A stretch of 38,970 nt of DNA from a bacterium CG_4_9_14_3_um_filter_65_15 (lineage in GTDB: Bacteria; Krumholzibacteriota; Krumholzibacteriia; LZORAL124-64-63): positions 64,723 through 103,692 of the forward strand of contig PFVX01000059.1 in the NCBI GenBank assembly GCA_002790835.1, written 5' to 3'. Each line of letters begins with the position of its first letter. The stretch's first letter is position 1. Positions 6,319 to 33,093 of the stretch are shown piece by piece. A program made the translations under genes and the position numbers. The notes below the pieces were generated by a model. The model saw only the letters and a program-made list of their open reading frames with translations, did not search any database and had not been told where the DNA came from.

Positions 6319-7469
6319 CCCTCTGTCCTTGCAATGCCCAGGACCTTCGTCGTCAGCCGGCTGATCGGGACACCCGGCGCGGACAGGCCGGCCACTCGCC
6401 ACCCGGGAGGCCAGGTGCGCCCACGGGTCAGGCACGCGCTGTCCACGAGAATCCGATGGACCTGGATCTGGAGGTCGAAGCGGGTGACCGCATGTCGGCA
6501 CGAGCCTGCGAAGTCGATATGTCCAGGGGCCAATATCCCGTGTACCAGCGGCAAGAAGTCGCTCCAGATTTCACCGGGGGCCAATACCTGGTCGGTAGAC
6601 GCGTGCAACCAAGGGGTGGACGGAAGCCCGCACATGCCCCGGAACAATCCTGAAAAATCCTCCCTGGCGACCGCAAACCCGCGAGGGGCCGGTACGGCGG
6701 GAGTCGCCCCGGGGGGCATGAGCAATACCTTTACGCCGTCGGTGATCAGGAGCTGGGCCAGGGTGACACGAACCCGATCCGGCGGAGCCGCCAGCGGGGG
6801 AATGGTTGCGGGGTCGGCGGACTCGGCGGCCCGGCACCAGCGGGACACGGGGCAGTCCGCACACTTCGGATGACGTGCCCTGCAGACCAGGGCGCCCAAT
6901 TCCATGACCGCCTCGTTCCAGTCGCCGGGCGCATCCGGGTCGACGATGTCCTCGGCCCATTCCTTCAACCGGGCCTTTCCCACGGCGGCGGCGCAGGCGC
7001 CGGTAGCGCAAAGCCAGCGCAAGAGGACCCGCCTGGCGTTGGCATCCACGGCGGGAACCCGTTCACCCAGCCCCAGACTGGCGATGGCTCCGCTGGCGTA
7101 GTCGCCCACTCCGGGCAACTGGTGCCATTCCCGGCTCGAAGCGGGAAAGCGACCGCCCCGTTCGGCAACGATGATGCCGGCGGCCCGGTGCAGCATGGCC
7201 GCCCTGCGGTAGTAACCCAGGCCGGACCACAGGGCCATGACCTCATCGACGGAGGACCGGGCCAGAGTCTGGACGTCGGGAAAACGGGCCAGGAAGCGTT
7301 GATAGAAAGGGACGACCGCCTCCACCGTCGTCTGTTGCAGCATGATTTCCGCCACCCAGATTCCGTACAGGGACTCCCGGGAACGCCAGGGCAGATCACG
7401 CCGGGAAGCGACGAACCATGACATCAGCGCAGCCCGCAGGGCATCCCTGTCCTTCCAGCCGGGTATCAT
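6315..7469 (-). CDS. mutY: A/G-specific adenine glycosylase MutY
   Basis: This base-excision enzyme removes adenine paired with 8-oxoguanine. Catalytic residues are visible: E41 in AEIMLQQTT and D142 in VDANARRVL. The helix-hairpin-helix is LPGVGDYASGAI (118-129). The [4Fe-4S] ligands are C196-x6-C203-x2-C206-x5-C212. The C-terminal part from ~residue 235 fits the NUDIX-like 8-oxoG recognition domain, weakly conserved as usual. The length of 384 is typical. ATG 7469 has GGGAGGGAG upstream; the longer frame to 7553 has no ribosome site. It is divergent from the acyl-CoA synthetase gene and upstream of the rrf2-like gene on the same strand. Confidence 0.95.
   Translation of the reverse strand: MIPGWKDRDALRAALMSWFVASRRDLPWRSRESLYGIWVAEIMLQQTTVEAVVPFYQRFLARFPDVQTLARSSVDEVMALWSGLGYYRRAAMLHRAAGIIVAERGGRFPASSREWHQLPGVGDYASGAIASLGLGERVPAVDANARRVLLRWLCATGACAAAVGKARLKEWAEDIVDPDAPGDWNEAVMELGALVCRARHPKCADCPVSRWCRAAESADPATIPPLAAPPDRVRVTLAQLLITDGVKVLLMPPGATPAVPAPRGFAVAREDFSGLFRGMCGLPSTPWLHASTDQVLAPGEIWSDFLPLVHGILAPGHIDFAGSCRHAVTRFDLQIQVHRILVDSACLTRGRTWPPGWRVAGLSAPGVPISRLTTKVLGIARTEG

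Positions 7470-24853: not shown

Positions 24854-24857
<4 letters not shown>
23934..24857 (-). CDS. DUF58 domain protein
   Basis: A 307-residue VWA-like cytoplasmic protein that always accompanies MoxR. The hallmark DUF58 segment is REYVPGDDIRSIDWNVTARTGDPFVKLYEEERE (shown here only by its ends: REYVPGDD and YEEERE, residues ~55-87). A VWA-like fold follows (AVDMSRSG, VSDFWTG). The start is GTG 24857, overlapping the moxR stop as GTGA. It probably couples the MoxR ATPase to the membrane Bat proteins. Confidence 0.93.
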
Positions 24858-25840
<983 letters not shown>

Positions 25841-26102: not shown

Positions 26103-26384
26103 TTGAGACTGAGCAAGCACAAGATCGAATACCTTTCCGACCGGATCCTCAAGCTGATCCAGAATCACGGTCAGATCCACATCCTGGCCAACGAGGACCT
26201 TCTGGTGCGCGCCGTCGACGATGCGGTCATGGAGAACATGAGGGCCGAGGACGAGATCGACGCCGAAGTCGAAGGGCTCATCAGCCAGAACGTCGATGAG
26301 ATCCGCGCCATGGACATGGACATGGGCGCCCTGCGCAGCAAGATGAAGCGCGAAATCGCGCGCAAACGGAATTTCACCCTGTGA
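26103..26384 (+). CDS. DUF507 family protein, first copy
   Basis: A 93-residue cytoplasmic, helical, highly charged protein. Typical DUF507 features are the LSKHKIEYLSDRILKLI start, an acidic middle with EDEIDAEVEGLI, and a basic end (MKREIARKRNF). The start codon is TTG with GGAGG 6 bases upstream. A second, diverged DUF507 gene follows after 13 bases. The family has no established function. Confidence 0.85.
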   Translation: MRLSKHKIEYLSDRILKLIQNHGQIHILANEDLLVRAVDDAVMENMRAEDEIDAEVEGLISQNVDEIRAMDMDMGALRSKMKREIARKRNFTL

Positions 26385-26397
26385 CCGGAGGAACCCC

Positions 26398-26682
26398 ATG
26401 CGTCTGACCGAGGAACGCGTCGCGGTGCTGGCCAGGGAAATATGCGACCGGCTGCTGGACGAAGAGGTCATCGATCTGGAAATCGCCGAGAGCGATTTCC
26501 GCCACCTCATCGAAAGCCTGATCATCAGGGACCTGAAAGTCGAAGATGAGATCGACGAGGAAGCCACCGCCTTTCTTCTGCGCACCAAGCCCAACCTCGA
26601 AGAGGGCTCCACGGAGTGGGGTATCGAGCTGGAACGGAAGAAGGAAGATCTCGCCGTCGCCCGCGGCTATGTGGCCTTCTGA
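26398..26682 (+). CDS. DUF507 family protein, second copy
   Basis: A 94-residue paralogue of the preceding gene. Both share the RL-x3-R/K-x3-L start, an acidic EDEID motif (residues ~57-61 here) and a basic, Arg/Lys-rich C-terminal third. GGAGG 6 bases upstream supports ATG 26398. The two may form a heterodimer; that is inference from tandem arrangement. A glycosyltransferase gene follows after 54 bases. Confidence 0.87.
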   Translation: MRLTEERVAVLAREICDRLLDEEVIDLEIAESDFRHLIESLIIRDLKVEDEIDEEATAFLLRTKPNLEEGSTEWGIELERKKEDLAVARGYVAF

Positions 26683-28062: not shown

Positions 28063-30492
28063 ATGACCACCTTGATGCTGAATCGGAGCCGCGCCCTGCC
28101 CGTCGCCATGGCGGCGGCCCTGACGGGGTGCCTCCTGCTGGCCGTCCCCGGCTGCGGCAACCGGCCCCGCCCCGAGACCGCTGCGGATATCCCCGGTTAT
28201 CGGGATATGCTCGAGGATGTCGGCCAGGTCGACACGGCGCCCCTGCGCGGTCGCCTGATCCTGCTGGATCCGGGCCACGGCGGTTTCTTCCGGGGCGCCC
28301 GCGGCCCCAACGGCCTGGAAGAGGCCGACGTCAATCTGGGCGTGTCCCTCTACCTGCGCGGCCTGCTGGAGTGGGCCGGCGCCCGGGTGGTCATGACCCG
28401 CACCAGCGACCGGGATTTCCGTACCCACGCCGACTCCACCCTGGCGTCCGATCTCGCCTTCAGGGTTTCCATGATGGATTCCCTTCAACCTGATGTATTC
28501 ATTTCACTTCACCACAACAGCAATCCAAGCTACGACCCCGTGATCAACGAGACCCAGACGTACTATCCCCTCGGAGATTCGGGGCCTTCCCTGCAGTTGG
28601 CCCGGGCCATCCACCGCCATCTGGCCTTCAATCTCGGCATCACCCCCGCCCGGATCCTGCCGGGCAACTTCCACGTTCTGCGCAACGCCACGGTCCCGGC
28701 GGTCCTGGGCGAACCGGCCATGATATCCAACCCGGTCATCGCCGGTCGGCTGAGCCTTGCGGCCAGCCAGAAGCTCGAAGCCGAATCCTACTTCCTGGGT
28801 CTGCTGGACTATTTCTCCCAGGGGGCGCCCGATTGGGACACCACCCTGGCAGACACGCTGGTCTTGCCGGATCAAAGCGAGCAGCCCGCCCTTTCCTGGA
28901 CCTTCGTTCCGGACCACCGAGGTGGCGTTCCGGACTCCCTGGGCCTGGGCCTGCCGGGAGGAGATCCCGCCACTTTTCGCGTGACCTTCAACGGGGAGCC
29001 GCAGTCCTTCGCCCTCGATCGCGGCGGCCGCAACGTGAGCTGGTATCCGCCGGGGTCCTCGGCCGAGGGAGTGGTCACCATCAGCGGCCGCAATCTGGCG
29101 GGTAACAGCACGCCCGCCCGCAGCACCCGACTCGTCCCGGCCGTGTGCGCCGCGCCCGAAGTCTTCATCCTGCGCGAAGCCGCCGCAGACAGCGCGCATT
29201 CCCTGGTGGGTTGGGCCTTTCCCTCCCCGGTTGCGCCCGCTTCGGTCCATGGCCGGTTGACTTGGACCGGCGGGTTTTCCCTGTCCATTGCCAACCAGAC
29301 ACGGGGCGGCCGGCTGGTGGATCCGGATTCTCTGCCTGCGTTGGCGGAGCAGGCGGTCTGGTCTGTTGACGCAGATGCGACCACTCGCCCCTGCACCGTG
29401 ACCGAGGCCGTCCTGCCGGCCGGCTGGCGCCTGGCAACGGTCACGGGTTATCCCGGGTTACCGGACAATGATCTGCCCCTTCGACAATGGCGCTACCGGG
29501 GCAGTCCCCCGCCTCCTCTTCCGGCGGGGATTCAGCTACCGAACGGTTTTGCCGTCGTCCCGGGAACCGACGCCTGGATGGAGTCCGACGGCATCCTGCC
29601 GGTCCGGGTCGGGTCCGGCGCCGAACAGACGGTCCATCCCTCCTTGCAGGTCGACCTCGTCGAGCCCGCCCTGTGGGGGCGCACCATCATCCTTGATCCC
29701 CGCGGCGGCGGCACCGAAACCGACGGCACCGGGCCGCTGGGCACGCGAGGTGCGGATCTCAATTTCGCGGTGGCCCGTTTCGCCGCAGACATGCTGACCG
29801 GCGCCGGCGCGCGGGTCGTCATGACCCGCGCCCAGGGCCAAACCCCGACCGATCCGGCCAAGGTCCTGCTGGCCCGTGAGACGGGGGCCGACCTTTTCCT
29901 TGTCGTCGGACGCGGCGCGGACGACACCACCAGCCTGCGCCACTATCCCGGCAGCACCACCGGATCCGCATGGGCCCGCACGACCGCAGGATTCCTGCTT
30001 CAGTCCTTCGGCGCCCCGGATTCCTGTCGGGTGGGCCCCGGTTCGGACTACCTGCTCCGGCACACCCACTGCCCGGCCCTGGTGGTGGAGTTGCCGGGCA
30101 TCGCCAAAACCGGGTCGGAACTGGCCCAGGGTGAGCCCTTCAACCAGCGCTGTGAAGCCGCTGCCCTTGTCCTGGCCGTGACGGGGGTCCTGAGCGACGA
30201 AGCGTCCGCTTATCCGGCAACCACCCTTCCACAGGTCATGGACGGTCTGGGGTCTGCGCTCACGGATTTCGATTTTGCCCTCTGGGACGGCAACCTGCCG
30301 GCGACCACCCCGGATACGGCCGCCGCTCCTGGTCCCGCTGGCGGAGAATCCGTAGTTTCATACCGGTTGTTGTTGCCCGCACGAGAAGGTCGCCACCAGC
30401 TTGAACTTCATGCCGCAGGTCGGTGGCAAGTCTGGAGCCTTTTGCGGGAGGGGACAAGCTGGCAGGGAAGGGTGGTGCAGGCCGGACCGTGA
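28063..30492 (+). CDS. N-acetylmuramoyl-L-alanine amidase lipoprotein with degenerate second amidase domain
   Basis: An 809-residue lipoprotein; the lipobox VPGC puts the lipid on C31. The first Amidase_3 domain (~62-252) has all active-site residues: H72 in DPGHGG, E87 in GLEEADVNL, H150 in SLHHN and E217 in LGEPAM, so it should cleave the amide between MurNAc and the stem peptide. An Ig-like region follows (~285-350). A second Amidase_3-like domain (~538-700) keeps the fold pattern (IILDPRGGG, GARVVMTR) but lacks the first three residues: H72 becomes G548, E87 becomes Gly and H150 becomes Gly. A C-terminal beta-rich piece ends the protein. The stop overlaps the TonB-like start as GTGA. A weak ribosome site makes a downstream start (ATG 28075) possible. 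Confidence 0.88.
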   Translation: MTTLMLNRSRALPVAMAAALTGCLLLAVPGCGNRPRPETAADIPGYRDMLEDVGQVDTAPLRGRLILLDPGHGGFFRGARGPNGLEEADVNLGVSLYLRGLLEWAGARVVMTRTSDRDFRTHADSTLASDLAFRVSMMDSLQPDVFISLHHNSNPSYDPVINETQTYYPLGDSGPSLQLARAIHRHLAFNLGITPARILPGNFHVLRNATVPAVLGEPAMISNPVIAGRLSLAASQKLEAESYFLGLLDYFSQGAPDWDTTLADTLVLPDQSEQPALSWTFVPDHRGGVPDSLGLGLPGGDPATFRVTFNGEPQSFALDRGGRNVSWYPPGSSAEGVVTISGRNLAGNSTPARSTRLVPAVCAAPEVFILREAAADSAHSLVGWAFPSPVAPASVHGRLTWTGGFSLSIANQTRGGRLVDPDSLPALAEQAVWSVDADATTRPCTVTEAVLPAGWRLATVTGYPGLPDNDLPLRQWRYRGSPPPPLPAGIQLPNGFAVVPGTDAWMESDGILPVRVGSGAEQTVHPSLQVDLVEPALWGRTIILDPRGGGTETDGTGPLGTRGADLNFAVARFAADMLTGAGARVVMTRAQGQTPTDPAKVLLARETGADLFLVVGRGADDTTSLRHYPGSTTGSAWARTTAGFLLQSFGAPDSCRVGPGSDYLLRHTHCPALVVELPGIAKTGSELAQGEPFNQRCEAAALVLAVTGVLSDEASAYPATTLPQVMDGLGSALTDFDFALWDGNLPATTPDTAAAPGPAGGESVVSYRLLLPAREGRHQLELHAAGRWQVWSLLREGTSWQGRVVQAGP

Positions 30493-31241
30493 GGAAACGT
30501 CGAGATGAGCAACGAGTGGAATCCGCCTACACGACCCGTGCCCAAACGGAGTTCCGCGGCAGCAATTCTCGGCGGCTGGCATGGGCGGCCCTGGCCGCCG
30601 CATCGATCCTGATCCTGCTGGCCTTGCTGGGCCCCGACCGGGAAGCGGTCAAACAGCGCTTCGAATACTACGGCAAACCCGGTGAGCTGAAGATCATGCC
30701 CGAGGTCTCCATCGATGAGGGGAGTGATCAGGTCCACCAGTTGCCCAAATCCCTCCAGCGGCCGCCGCCACCCGCCTTCGAGAACCAGGAAAACGAAGAC
30801 CTCGATCCGAAGGCCAAGGAAGTCGTCCCTGTGCCGAGCAAGGAAGACCCGCGAAAGGTCCTCGACCCCGCGCAGCAGGTGGACCCATCTGCGGAGGTGG
30901 CATCCCAGGAACAGGTGGAACTTCGCCTGCCCAGCCAGTCCAATCCCGACTGGTACATCCTCAAGCAGGTCAATCCCGAGTATCCCCTGAGCGCGTCGGA
31001 GATCGAACGGCGGACACCCATCATCTTCGTCCGGGCCGCCATCTTTGTCGGACCGGACGGCATGGTCCTGGAAAAGATGGTCCTGGGCACCAACGGCAGC
31101 CCGGTGTTCGCCCGTGAAGTCCTTGCCGCCCTGGATAAATGGGTATTTGGTTGGCGGGTCCCCCAGGAACAGGGGCGCTGGATCGAGATGACCTGGAATT
31201 TCAAGAGTCCCTATTTCAGCGTGACTCCAAGCTCCGGTTAG
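30489..31241 (+). CDS. TonB-like energy-transducer protein
   Basis: A 250-residue inner-membrane protein with a basic N-terminus, one membrane helix (30-48, LAWAALAAASILILLALLG), a Pro/Glu-rich periplasmic spacer (PPPP at 92-95) and a TonB C-terminal-like domain (~165-245: NPEYPLSASE, IFVGPDGMVLEKMVLG, ALDKWVFGW). GTG 30489 overlaps the amidase stop, implying translational coupling; the longer frame to 30423 lies inside the amidase gene. No exbB or exbD is present nearby, so energy transduction is not assured and a structural role in the envelope is possible. The 3' end overlaps the convergent LpoA-like gene by 26 bases. Confidence 0.8.
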   Translation: MRKRRDEQRVESAYTTRAQTEFRGSNSRRLAWAALAAASILILLALLGPDREAVKQRFEYYGKPGELKIMPEVSIDEGSDQVHQLPKSLQRPPPPAFENQENEDLDPKAKEVVPVPSKEDPRKVLDPAQQVDPSAEVASQEQVELRLPSQSNPDWYILKQVNPEYPLSASEIERRTPIIFVRAAIFVGPDGMVLEKMVLGTNGSPVFAREVLAALDKWVFGWRVPQEQGRWIEMTWNFKSPYFSVTPSSG

Positions 31242-33093
31242 CCGTGGAATCCGAATCGGGGGACAAGAAGCGCGTCCCGGAACTGTCGGAAGCGGCGGCG
31301 AAGGCTGCGCGGAAAAGTCCAGCCGGGAAGGTCTCCCGCGTACCATTGCGCACCAGGCGCAGGCCCCGCGTCAGAGCCGCCACGTCCCCGTCCCCCATTT
31401 CCTCGACGGTGGAGGCCTGCAGATACTCCGCCAGGGCGCGAGCGATTTCCGCGCGGTTGGGGGCCGTGTCCCCGGCCATCGCCTCGGCCACCCGGCGAAC
31501 GGCGAGATAGGTCATGCGCGCCACGGCCGTCTGATCCCCGCTGTAGGCGTCCTCTTCCCAGGATGCCTCAAACCGGTCGACCCAGGCGGAGGGAAACCGG
31601 GCCTGGCCGTCGGGATAGATTACACCCTCGAATGCCGCAGCCTGCTGGACAGAGGGTTGCCCGGAACTCCAGGCGCTGGTGCCCAGGACCAGGGAACCGA
31701 GGTGGTGGAAATCAAGCTGCGGCCCCAACAGGGTCATCTGTTCGAAACTGGCAGGCACGAAGACGACTTCCGGCATCCGCCGACGCACCTCGAGGATCTG
31801 GGCATGAAAATCGGTGACCGCCGCCGGAAAGTACGCTTCGGCGACCACCTCTCCTCCCAGGCTGTCGACCCGCGCCCGAAAGATGTCGCCCATGCTGTGG
31901 CCCGCAGGATTGTCCGGGCCGAGGATGGCGGTGCGCTTCTTGCCCAGCACGACCACGGCCAGATCAGCAAGATTCCGGATATCCCGCTGGTCGTTCATGT
32001 TGGTCTGGAAGATACCCTCGCCCAGGCTCTCGATGCGCTCGTTGGAGGCGGTGGGAGAAACCAGGGGGACGCCGGCGGCCGAAGCGACAAGGGCGGCGGC
32101 AACCGTAGGCCCGGAAGCCAGCGCGCCTACCAGCACCCCGACCTGGGGTCGAGCACAGAACGTGCGTGCAGCCTGGACGGCCTGAACCGGGTCCCCACCC
32201 GTATCCAGCTCCTCCAGAGTCAGTTCAGGGCCACCAGCTTCCCGGGCATGGGTCAAGGCGAGCCGGGCGGCCTCATCCATGGCGTTGCCGAATCCGGCGT
32301 TTCTCCCGGTCAGGGGCACCAGCAGGCCCACCACCGTGGCCGCCTGCCGGTCTGCGGGCGCCGCAAGGGTTCGCCTCCCAGCCACCAGGTCGGCTGAGGC
32401 CGCAGCCCAGGGATCACCGGGCGTAGCGGCCACCAGGGCGGTGGCCACGATTCGGGCCTGGTCCACGCGACCGGCCAACATCAATCTCCGTACGCGATGG
32501 AAGCCCAACAACCCCTCAACGGGTAGGGGGGCCAGACGTATCTCCAGTTGGCCCAACTGAGCTCGGTTCAGGCCGCTCAGCAGGGGAACCGGCCCGATCA
32601 GGTCGGAGTCGCCCAACACCAGCATAGGATCCTGCCGCCACAGCAGAACCTGGAAGGCCGCCGCGGTCAGGGTATCGCGCTGGCCAAGGGCCAGGTCGCG
32701 GGTTTTGAGGAATGTCGGGCTCAGCAAGGAATCGGCGGCGAATGAGCCCTCGTACAGGCGAGCCCATCCCAGACTGGTGGCCGGGTCGCCCAACTTCATT
32801 GCCGCAGGGATAGCCAGGGCCAAGGCCGTTGCGCATCGCGGGTCATCGCGATGGTAACCGAGCAGGGCGCCGGTGGTCCGCACAACCTGGCCCCACTGAC
32901 CCAGGGAATCGTAGTCCCGGATCTGGGCCAGAAGCGCGGCGGCTTGCTGATCACGGGTACCGGCCAGAGGCTTGGTGTCCGCATTCTTTCCGTCCAAGAC
33001 ACCGCCGCAACCGGCCAGGACAAAAAGGATCGCCCCCACCGCAAGGACCCAGGGCAGGGCCCGAGCTCGCTGCAAGCTAATCTGCATGATCAT
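31216..33093 (-). CDS. LpoA-like lipoprotein with periplasmic-binding fold
   Basis: A 625-residue outer-membrane or periplasmic lipoprotein; lipobox LAGC, C29. Residues ~45-245 are helical, TPR-like; ~250-600 form a type I periplasmic-binding fold (VVGLLVPLTGRNAGFGNAMDEAARLAL, shown by GLLVPLTGRNAGFG and later VLVGALASGPTVAAA and VPLVSPTAS). That two-part layout is the layout of LpoA/LppC, the lipoprotein that activates penicillin-binding protein 1A. A plain amino-acid-transport binding protein is the alternative, but no ABC permease genes are adjacent. ATG 33093 is used; ATG 33087 is also possible. It overlaps the DUF2914 gene by 17 bases, so it belongs to that operon. Confidence 0.8.
   Translation of the reverse strand: MIMQISLQRARALPWVLAVGAILFVLAGCGGVLDGKNADTKPLAGTRDQQAAALLAQIRDYDSLGQWGQVVRTTGALLGYHRDDPRCATALALAIPAAMKLGDPATSLGWARLYEGSFAADSLLSPTFLKTRDLALGQRDTLTAAAFQVLLWRQDPMLVLGDSDLIGPVPLLSGLNRAQLGQLEIRLAPLPVEGLLGFHRVRRLMLAGRVDQARIVATALVAATPGDPWAAASADLVAGRRTLAAPADRQAATVVGLLVPLTGRNAGFGNAMDEAARLALTHAREAGGPELTLEELDTGGDPVQAVQAARTFCARPQVGVLVGALASGPTVAAALVASAAGVPLVSPTASNERIESLGEGIFQTNMNDQRDIRNLADLAVVVLGKKRTAILGPDNPAGHSMGDIFRARVDSLGGEVVAEAYFPAAVTDFHAQILEVRRRMPEVVFVPASFEQMTLLGPQLDFHHLGSLVLGTSAWSSGQPSVQQAAAFEGVIYPDGQARFPSAWVDRFEASWEEDAYSGDQTAVARMTYLAVRRVAEAMAGDTAPNRAEIARALAEYLQASTVEEMGDGDVAALTRGLRLVRNGTRETFPAGLFRAAFAAASDSSGTRFLSPDSDSTANRSLESR

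Follow-up and report, generated by a model that had tools for sequence, protein, structure and literature searches.

Cell-wall amidases need restraint, and separate partners, either dead-domain proteins or lipoproteins, are known to provide it. In the inactive LytM-domain activators EnvC, NlpD and DipM it is a dead hydrolase domain that exerts control over these amidases (PMC8416486, PMC10336132), and CwlD, an enzyme of the Amidase_3 family (PF01520), needs the partner GerS (PMC8496864), as LytH depends on ActH (7tj4). Moreover, non-lytic PGRPs lacking zinc ligands bind peptidoglycan (PMC2837410), and carboxypeptidase D combines tandem metallopeptidase domains in one chain, the last of which is inactive (PMC11266112). 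The steering of live hydrolases by dead domains as well as the placement of an inactive domain beside active ones in one chain are known concepts. Literature searches of open-access papers yielded no Amidase_3 case of a pseudoamidase or of tandem amidase domains and no report on amidases of Krumholzibacteriota. To our knowledge, no member of a class of proteins that fuse a dead to a live amidase has been studied.

The window analyzed here, i.e. the whole stretch of 38,970 nucleotides from a genome of the Krumholzibacteriota, encodes a predicted lipoprotein with two Amidase_3 domains, designated D1 and D2. Both domains have the fold common to CwlV, CwlD, LytH and AmiC2, and D1 keeps all catalytic residues; in contrast to these enzymes, none of the three zinc ligands is left in D2, and both domains are united in one lipoprotein. 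The non-lytic PGRPs resemble D2 as evolutionarily retained amidase-like domains without zinc ligands, but they are animal immunity proteins of an Amidase_2-type fold family, and the peptidoglycan binding that they exert is only proposed for D2. EnvC, NlpD and DipM differ from D2 in fold and are usually separate proteins, the control of an amidase again being only proposed for D2. In the CwlD-GerS and LytH-ActH pairs the partner is neither part of the enzyme chain nor a dead amidase, and carboxypeptidase D differs from the tandem in being an animal peptide-processing enzyme of family M14.

Domain organization of the tandem protein

The open reading frame at positions 28063-30492 of the forward strand encodes a protein of 809 amino acids, and all of its features are given below by their positions on that strand. 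The protein starts with a signal peptide (28063..28155) that ends with the lipobox sequence ..LAVPGC, the last residue of which is C31. Across 30 diverse sequences this cysteine never varies, and in a set of 64 it is nearly invariant; the succession of a signal peptide and a lipobox cysteine points to a lipoprotein.

The first-pass annotation had described two Amidase_3-like domains separated by an Ig-like region. The presence of two domains was borne out by Pfam, as the Amidase_3 profile matched the protein in two stretches with 135 bits overall, corresponding to D1 at approximately residues 61-255 (28243..28827) and D2 at approximately residues 537-712 (29671..30198). D1 alone scored 113 bits against a curated cut-off of 27, and its matches among the PDB entries include CwlV and CwlD. 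The residues H72 (28276-28278), E87 (28321-28323), H150 (28510-28512) and E217 (28711-28713), which had been assigned to the first domain, are present as described; the zinc ligands His, Glu and His together with the catalytic Glu are intact in 91 of 91 D1 sequences, including that of the window, with one out-of-frame fragment set aside in these counts. The inserted helix that follows the second His in AmiC-type enzymes is not found in D1, which by sequence is of the CwlV/CwlD-like kind.

The region between the domains comprises residues 256-536 (28828..29670). The AlphaFold model of the full-length protein (pLDDT 86, pTM 0.87 over 809 residues) contains a beta-rich stretch between D1 and D2 according to the DSSP assignment, and Foldseek returned Ig-like matches of weak significance, but the Pfam search of this region gave no match. 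An Ig-like nature of this fast-evolving linker is plausible on the basis of the model. The protein ends with a poorly conserved region consisting of a C-terminal helix and a small beta region (residues 713-809, 30199..30489).

Fold and lost zinc site of the second domain

A predicted structure of residues 530-710 other than an amidase fold had been named in advance as the outcome that would speak against the second domain, and the opposite was found. D2 alone matched the Pfam Amidase_3 profile with 29.9 bits (E 7e-7), which is above the curated cut-off of 27, and among the 64 aligned sequences, 61 had a D2 region that matched as well at an E-value of 0.01. The AlphaFold model of the isolated domain (pLDDT 91.4, pTM 0.87) was compared by Foldseek with solved structures, and the best matches were all Amidase_3 proteins, with 1jwq, 5emi and 7tj4 among them. 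The model superimposes on CwlV (1jwq) with a TM-score of 0.86 at 1.9 A and on AmiC2 of Nostoc with a TM-score of 0.86, normalized by target length, at 2.0 A; further matches included LytH (7tj4, TM-score 0.84), AmiP and CwlD.

A joint alignment of 91 D1 and 83 D2 sequences was used to compare the catalytic positions. In this alignment the residues G548 (29704-29706), G563 (29749-29751), G616 (29908-29910) and E676 (30088-30090) of D2 correspond to H72, E87, H150 and E217 of D1, in agreement with the series Gly, Gly, Gly and Glu that had been read from the sequence of the window. The first His is kept in none of the 83 D2 sequences, nor are all three zinc ligands; 75 sequences have none of them, seven have one and a single sequence (L152) has two. 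Where a Glu or a second His is found at its zinc position (L152, L135, L058, L130, L131, L150, L114 and L142; never the first His), it may be a remnant of the ancestral site or a chance return. The position of the catalytic Glu varies freely in D2, S, R, H, E and Q all being common, and a Glu is present in 11 of the 83 sequences. A decay or a sequencing artefact of D2 in the window was ruled out by the occurrence of the same losses in all relatives.

Conservation and selection

The median pairwise identity amounts to 53-54% for D1, 31-33% for D2, 17-21% for the linker and 15-19% for the C-terminal tail. In close pairs, simple Nei-Gojobori counts gave dN/dS values of about 0.12-0.6 for D2 and of 0.05-0.4 for D1, and D2 is maintained under purifying selection. 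Moreover, D2 has a set of sequence motifs of its own. The DPGHGG motif of D1 is replaced by D545-P-x-G-G-G, and R562-G/A563 precedes the conserved N567; further parts of the signature are T668-x-C670-P-A and the D2-specific motif HxPGSxxG (residues 627-634, 29941..29964), in which S631 and G634 are found in 83 of 83 sequences and H627 in 68. The former zinc site is itself conserved, with G548 in 86% of the sequences and the nearby residues T668 and C670 in 93% and 88%, respectively. Since decay would not be expected to yield such a fixed motif set, these data argue that D2 is maintained and not degenerating.

D2 is a maintained homolog of the amidases that has lost the catalytic residues, and it is very probably a pseudoenzyme. 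The earlier interpretation of the protein as a pseudoenzyme-enzyme tandem in one lipoprotein is upheld by the fold of D2, the loss of ligands in all relatives, the purifying selection and the conserved architecture.

Distribution and origin of the tandem

A survey for the same tandem in other genomes had been suggested, and the tandem does recur. A search with the full alignment detected the protein in 45 of 57 genomes of the phylum with a completeness of at least 85%, nearly always as one copy of full length, and the partial matches run into contig ends. Within this set of 57 genomes the tandem is absent from the families designated f4 and f5 and from some genera; the Amidase_3 proteins retrieved from f4 genomes have one such domain each and are of another kind. 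The best 80 loci in a collection of species representatives carry the labels Krumholzibacteriota, Eisenbacteria, Latescibacterota, Glassbacteria, Gemmatimonas, Cloacimonetes, Poribacteria, Abyssobacteria and a Deltaproteobacterium, although such labels are not always reliable for metagenome-assembled genomes.

In a quick phylogenetic tree, all D2 sequences form one group (SH-aLRT 99) and all D1 sequences another (SH-aLRT 98), and live outgroup amidases join D1 and not D2. The plain reading of this tree is that one ancient tandem, in which the site of D2 would already have been lost, has been inherited since. D2 may have arisen as an internal duplicate of D1; its branches in this quick tree are long. 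The gene is interrupted in locus L079 (about 6984-6986; the same place as G018:C244 and L013) by one in-frame TGA between the linker and D2, which splits the tandem into frames of 488 and 324 amino acids and may stem from faulty sequencing, from disruption of the gene or from a natural split; one in-frame TGA was also observed in each of the genomes G039 and G065.

Gene neighbourhood and paralogues

The gene that follows on the forward strand (30423..31241) encodes a TonB-C-like protein with a weak Pfam match below the cut-off. Beyond it, the reverse strand carries genes for a Peripla_BP_6/LppC-like lipoprotein (31216..33093) and for a PPIC-type protein. LpoA, which activates a peptidoglycan synthase in Escherichia coli, belongs to the LppC family, and this neighbourhood fits an envelope-building role. 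Upstream, two adjacent small open reading frames of the forward strand (26103-26384 and 26398-26682) match positions 1-93 and 95-181 of the 182 positions of the DUF507 profile, as if one two-part family were represented by two genes, and a gene for a MoxR-type AAA ATPase (24854-25840, reverse strand) lies beside further genes of that strand, probably as part of a MoxR operon.

The same genome encodes two additional Amidase_3 proteins, each with one such domain. One of them is AmiC-like with respect to Amidase_3 score and length. The other (L003, G000:C49:48088-48750) contains five LysM repeats and a lower-scoring Amidase_3 domain with catalytic motifs that look intact by eye.

Possible roles of the second domain

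D2 very probably retains some non-enzymatic function, for instance in gripping the cell wall or in controlling D1. The first-pass annotation had named peptidoglycan binding and regulation of the live domain as the two probable roles. Peptidoglycan binding is favoured here by analogy, although we rate it as falling slightly short of an even prospect. D1 would act as a lipid-anchored, active zinc amidase that cleaves the MurNAc-L-Ala bond of peptidoglycan, and D2, an ancient Amidase_3 copy, would hold no zinc and would not cut. It would still recognize peptidoglycan, either a muropeptide or the glycan, and would keep D1 in contact with its substrate, much as non-lytic PGRPs bind without cutting. 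This proposal draws on the ability of these PGRPs to bind peptidoglycan despite their lack of zinc ligands, and on the conservation of positions at the old zinc site of D2. Taken as a whole, a cutting D1 held on its substrate by a non-catalytic D2 is the best explanation at hand and about equally likely to be right or wrong.

The main rival, likewise based on analogy, is control of D1 by D2, followed by docking of a partner. As an intramolecular regulator, D2 would pack onto its own D1 or onto the D1 of a partner molecule and switch it on or off, thereby doing in one chain what the separate proteins EnvC, GerS and ActH do for other Amidase_3 enzymes. This is consistent with the CwlV/CwlD-like D1 that is devoid of the AmiC-type helix, with the partner requirement of other Amidase_3 enzymes such as CwlD (PMC8496864), with the control of amidases by inactive LytM domains (PMC10336132) and with the pTM of the full-length model, which hints at a defined arrangement of the domains. 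The linker, however, is long and fast-evolving, and we consider such regulation rather unlikely. From the usual topology of the fold we assume that the HxPGSxxG motif may sit away from the old groove, and this location would favour contact with a partner or with D1 over substrate binding.

A docking site for an envelope protein, e.g. one of the LppC-like, TonB-like or PPIC-type proteins encoded nearby, appears markedly less probable. Homologs of the LppC-like protein are encoded within about 6 kb of the tandem in 47 of 80 related loci, of the PPIC-type protein in 48 and of the TonB-like protein in 27, despite short contigs, and metallopeptidase pseudoenzymes often act by protein contacts (PMC11266112). 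A shared neighbourhood by itself is nevertheless no proof of contact, and several relatives with the full-length tandem lack these neighbours in the DNA examined.

It is very improbable that D2 is an enzyme with altered chemistry based on H627, C670, S631 or T668. Both H627 and C670 are present in 61 of the 83 D2 sequences, and S631 is invariant, but 15 sequences have Y, F or N instead of H627, 10 lack C670 and the full conserved set of metal ligands is gone. That D2 represents a functionless, decaying relic is scarcely credible, even though it evolves faster than D1 and varies freely at the catalytic Glu, since this reading is largely refuted by its retention across several labelled phyla, by dN/dS values below 1, by a conservation exceeding that of the flanking regions and by the invariant residues S631 and G634.

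Conclusions

A broader reading, according to which the tandem proteins form a widespread class of Amidase_3 pseudoenzymes that is ancestral to several candidate phyla and serves to control or direct the live amidase fused to it, is realistic and at the same time somewhat doubtful. If it is true, D2 would be the built-in counterpart of the separate amidase activators. The tandem itself is a simple system of two domains, either of which can be deleted to probe binding and control.
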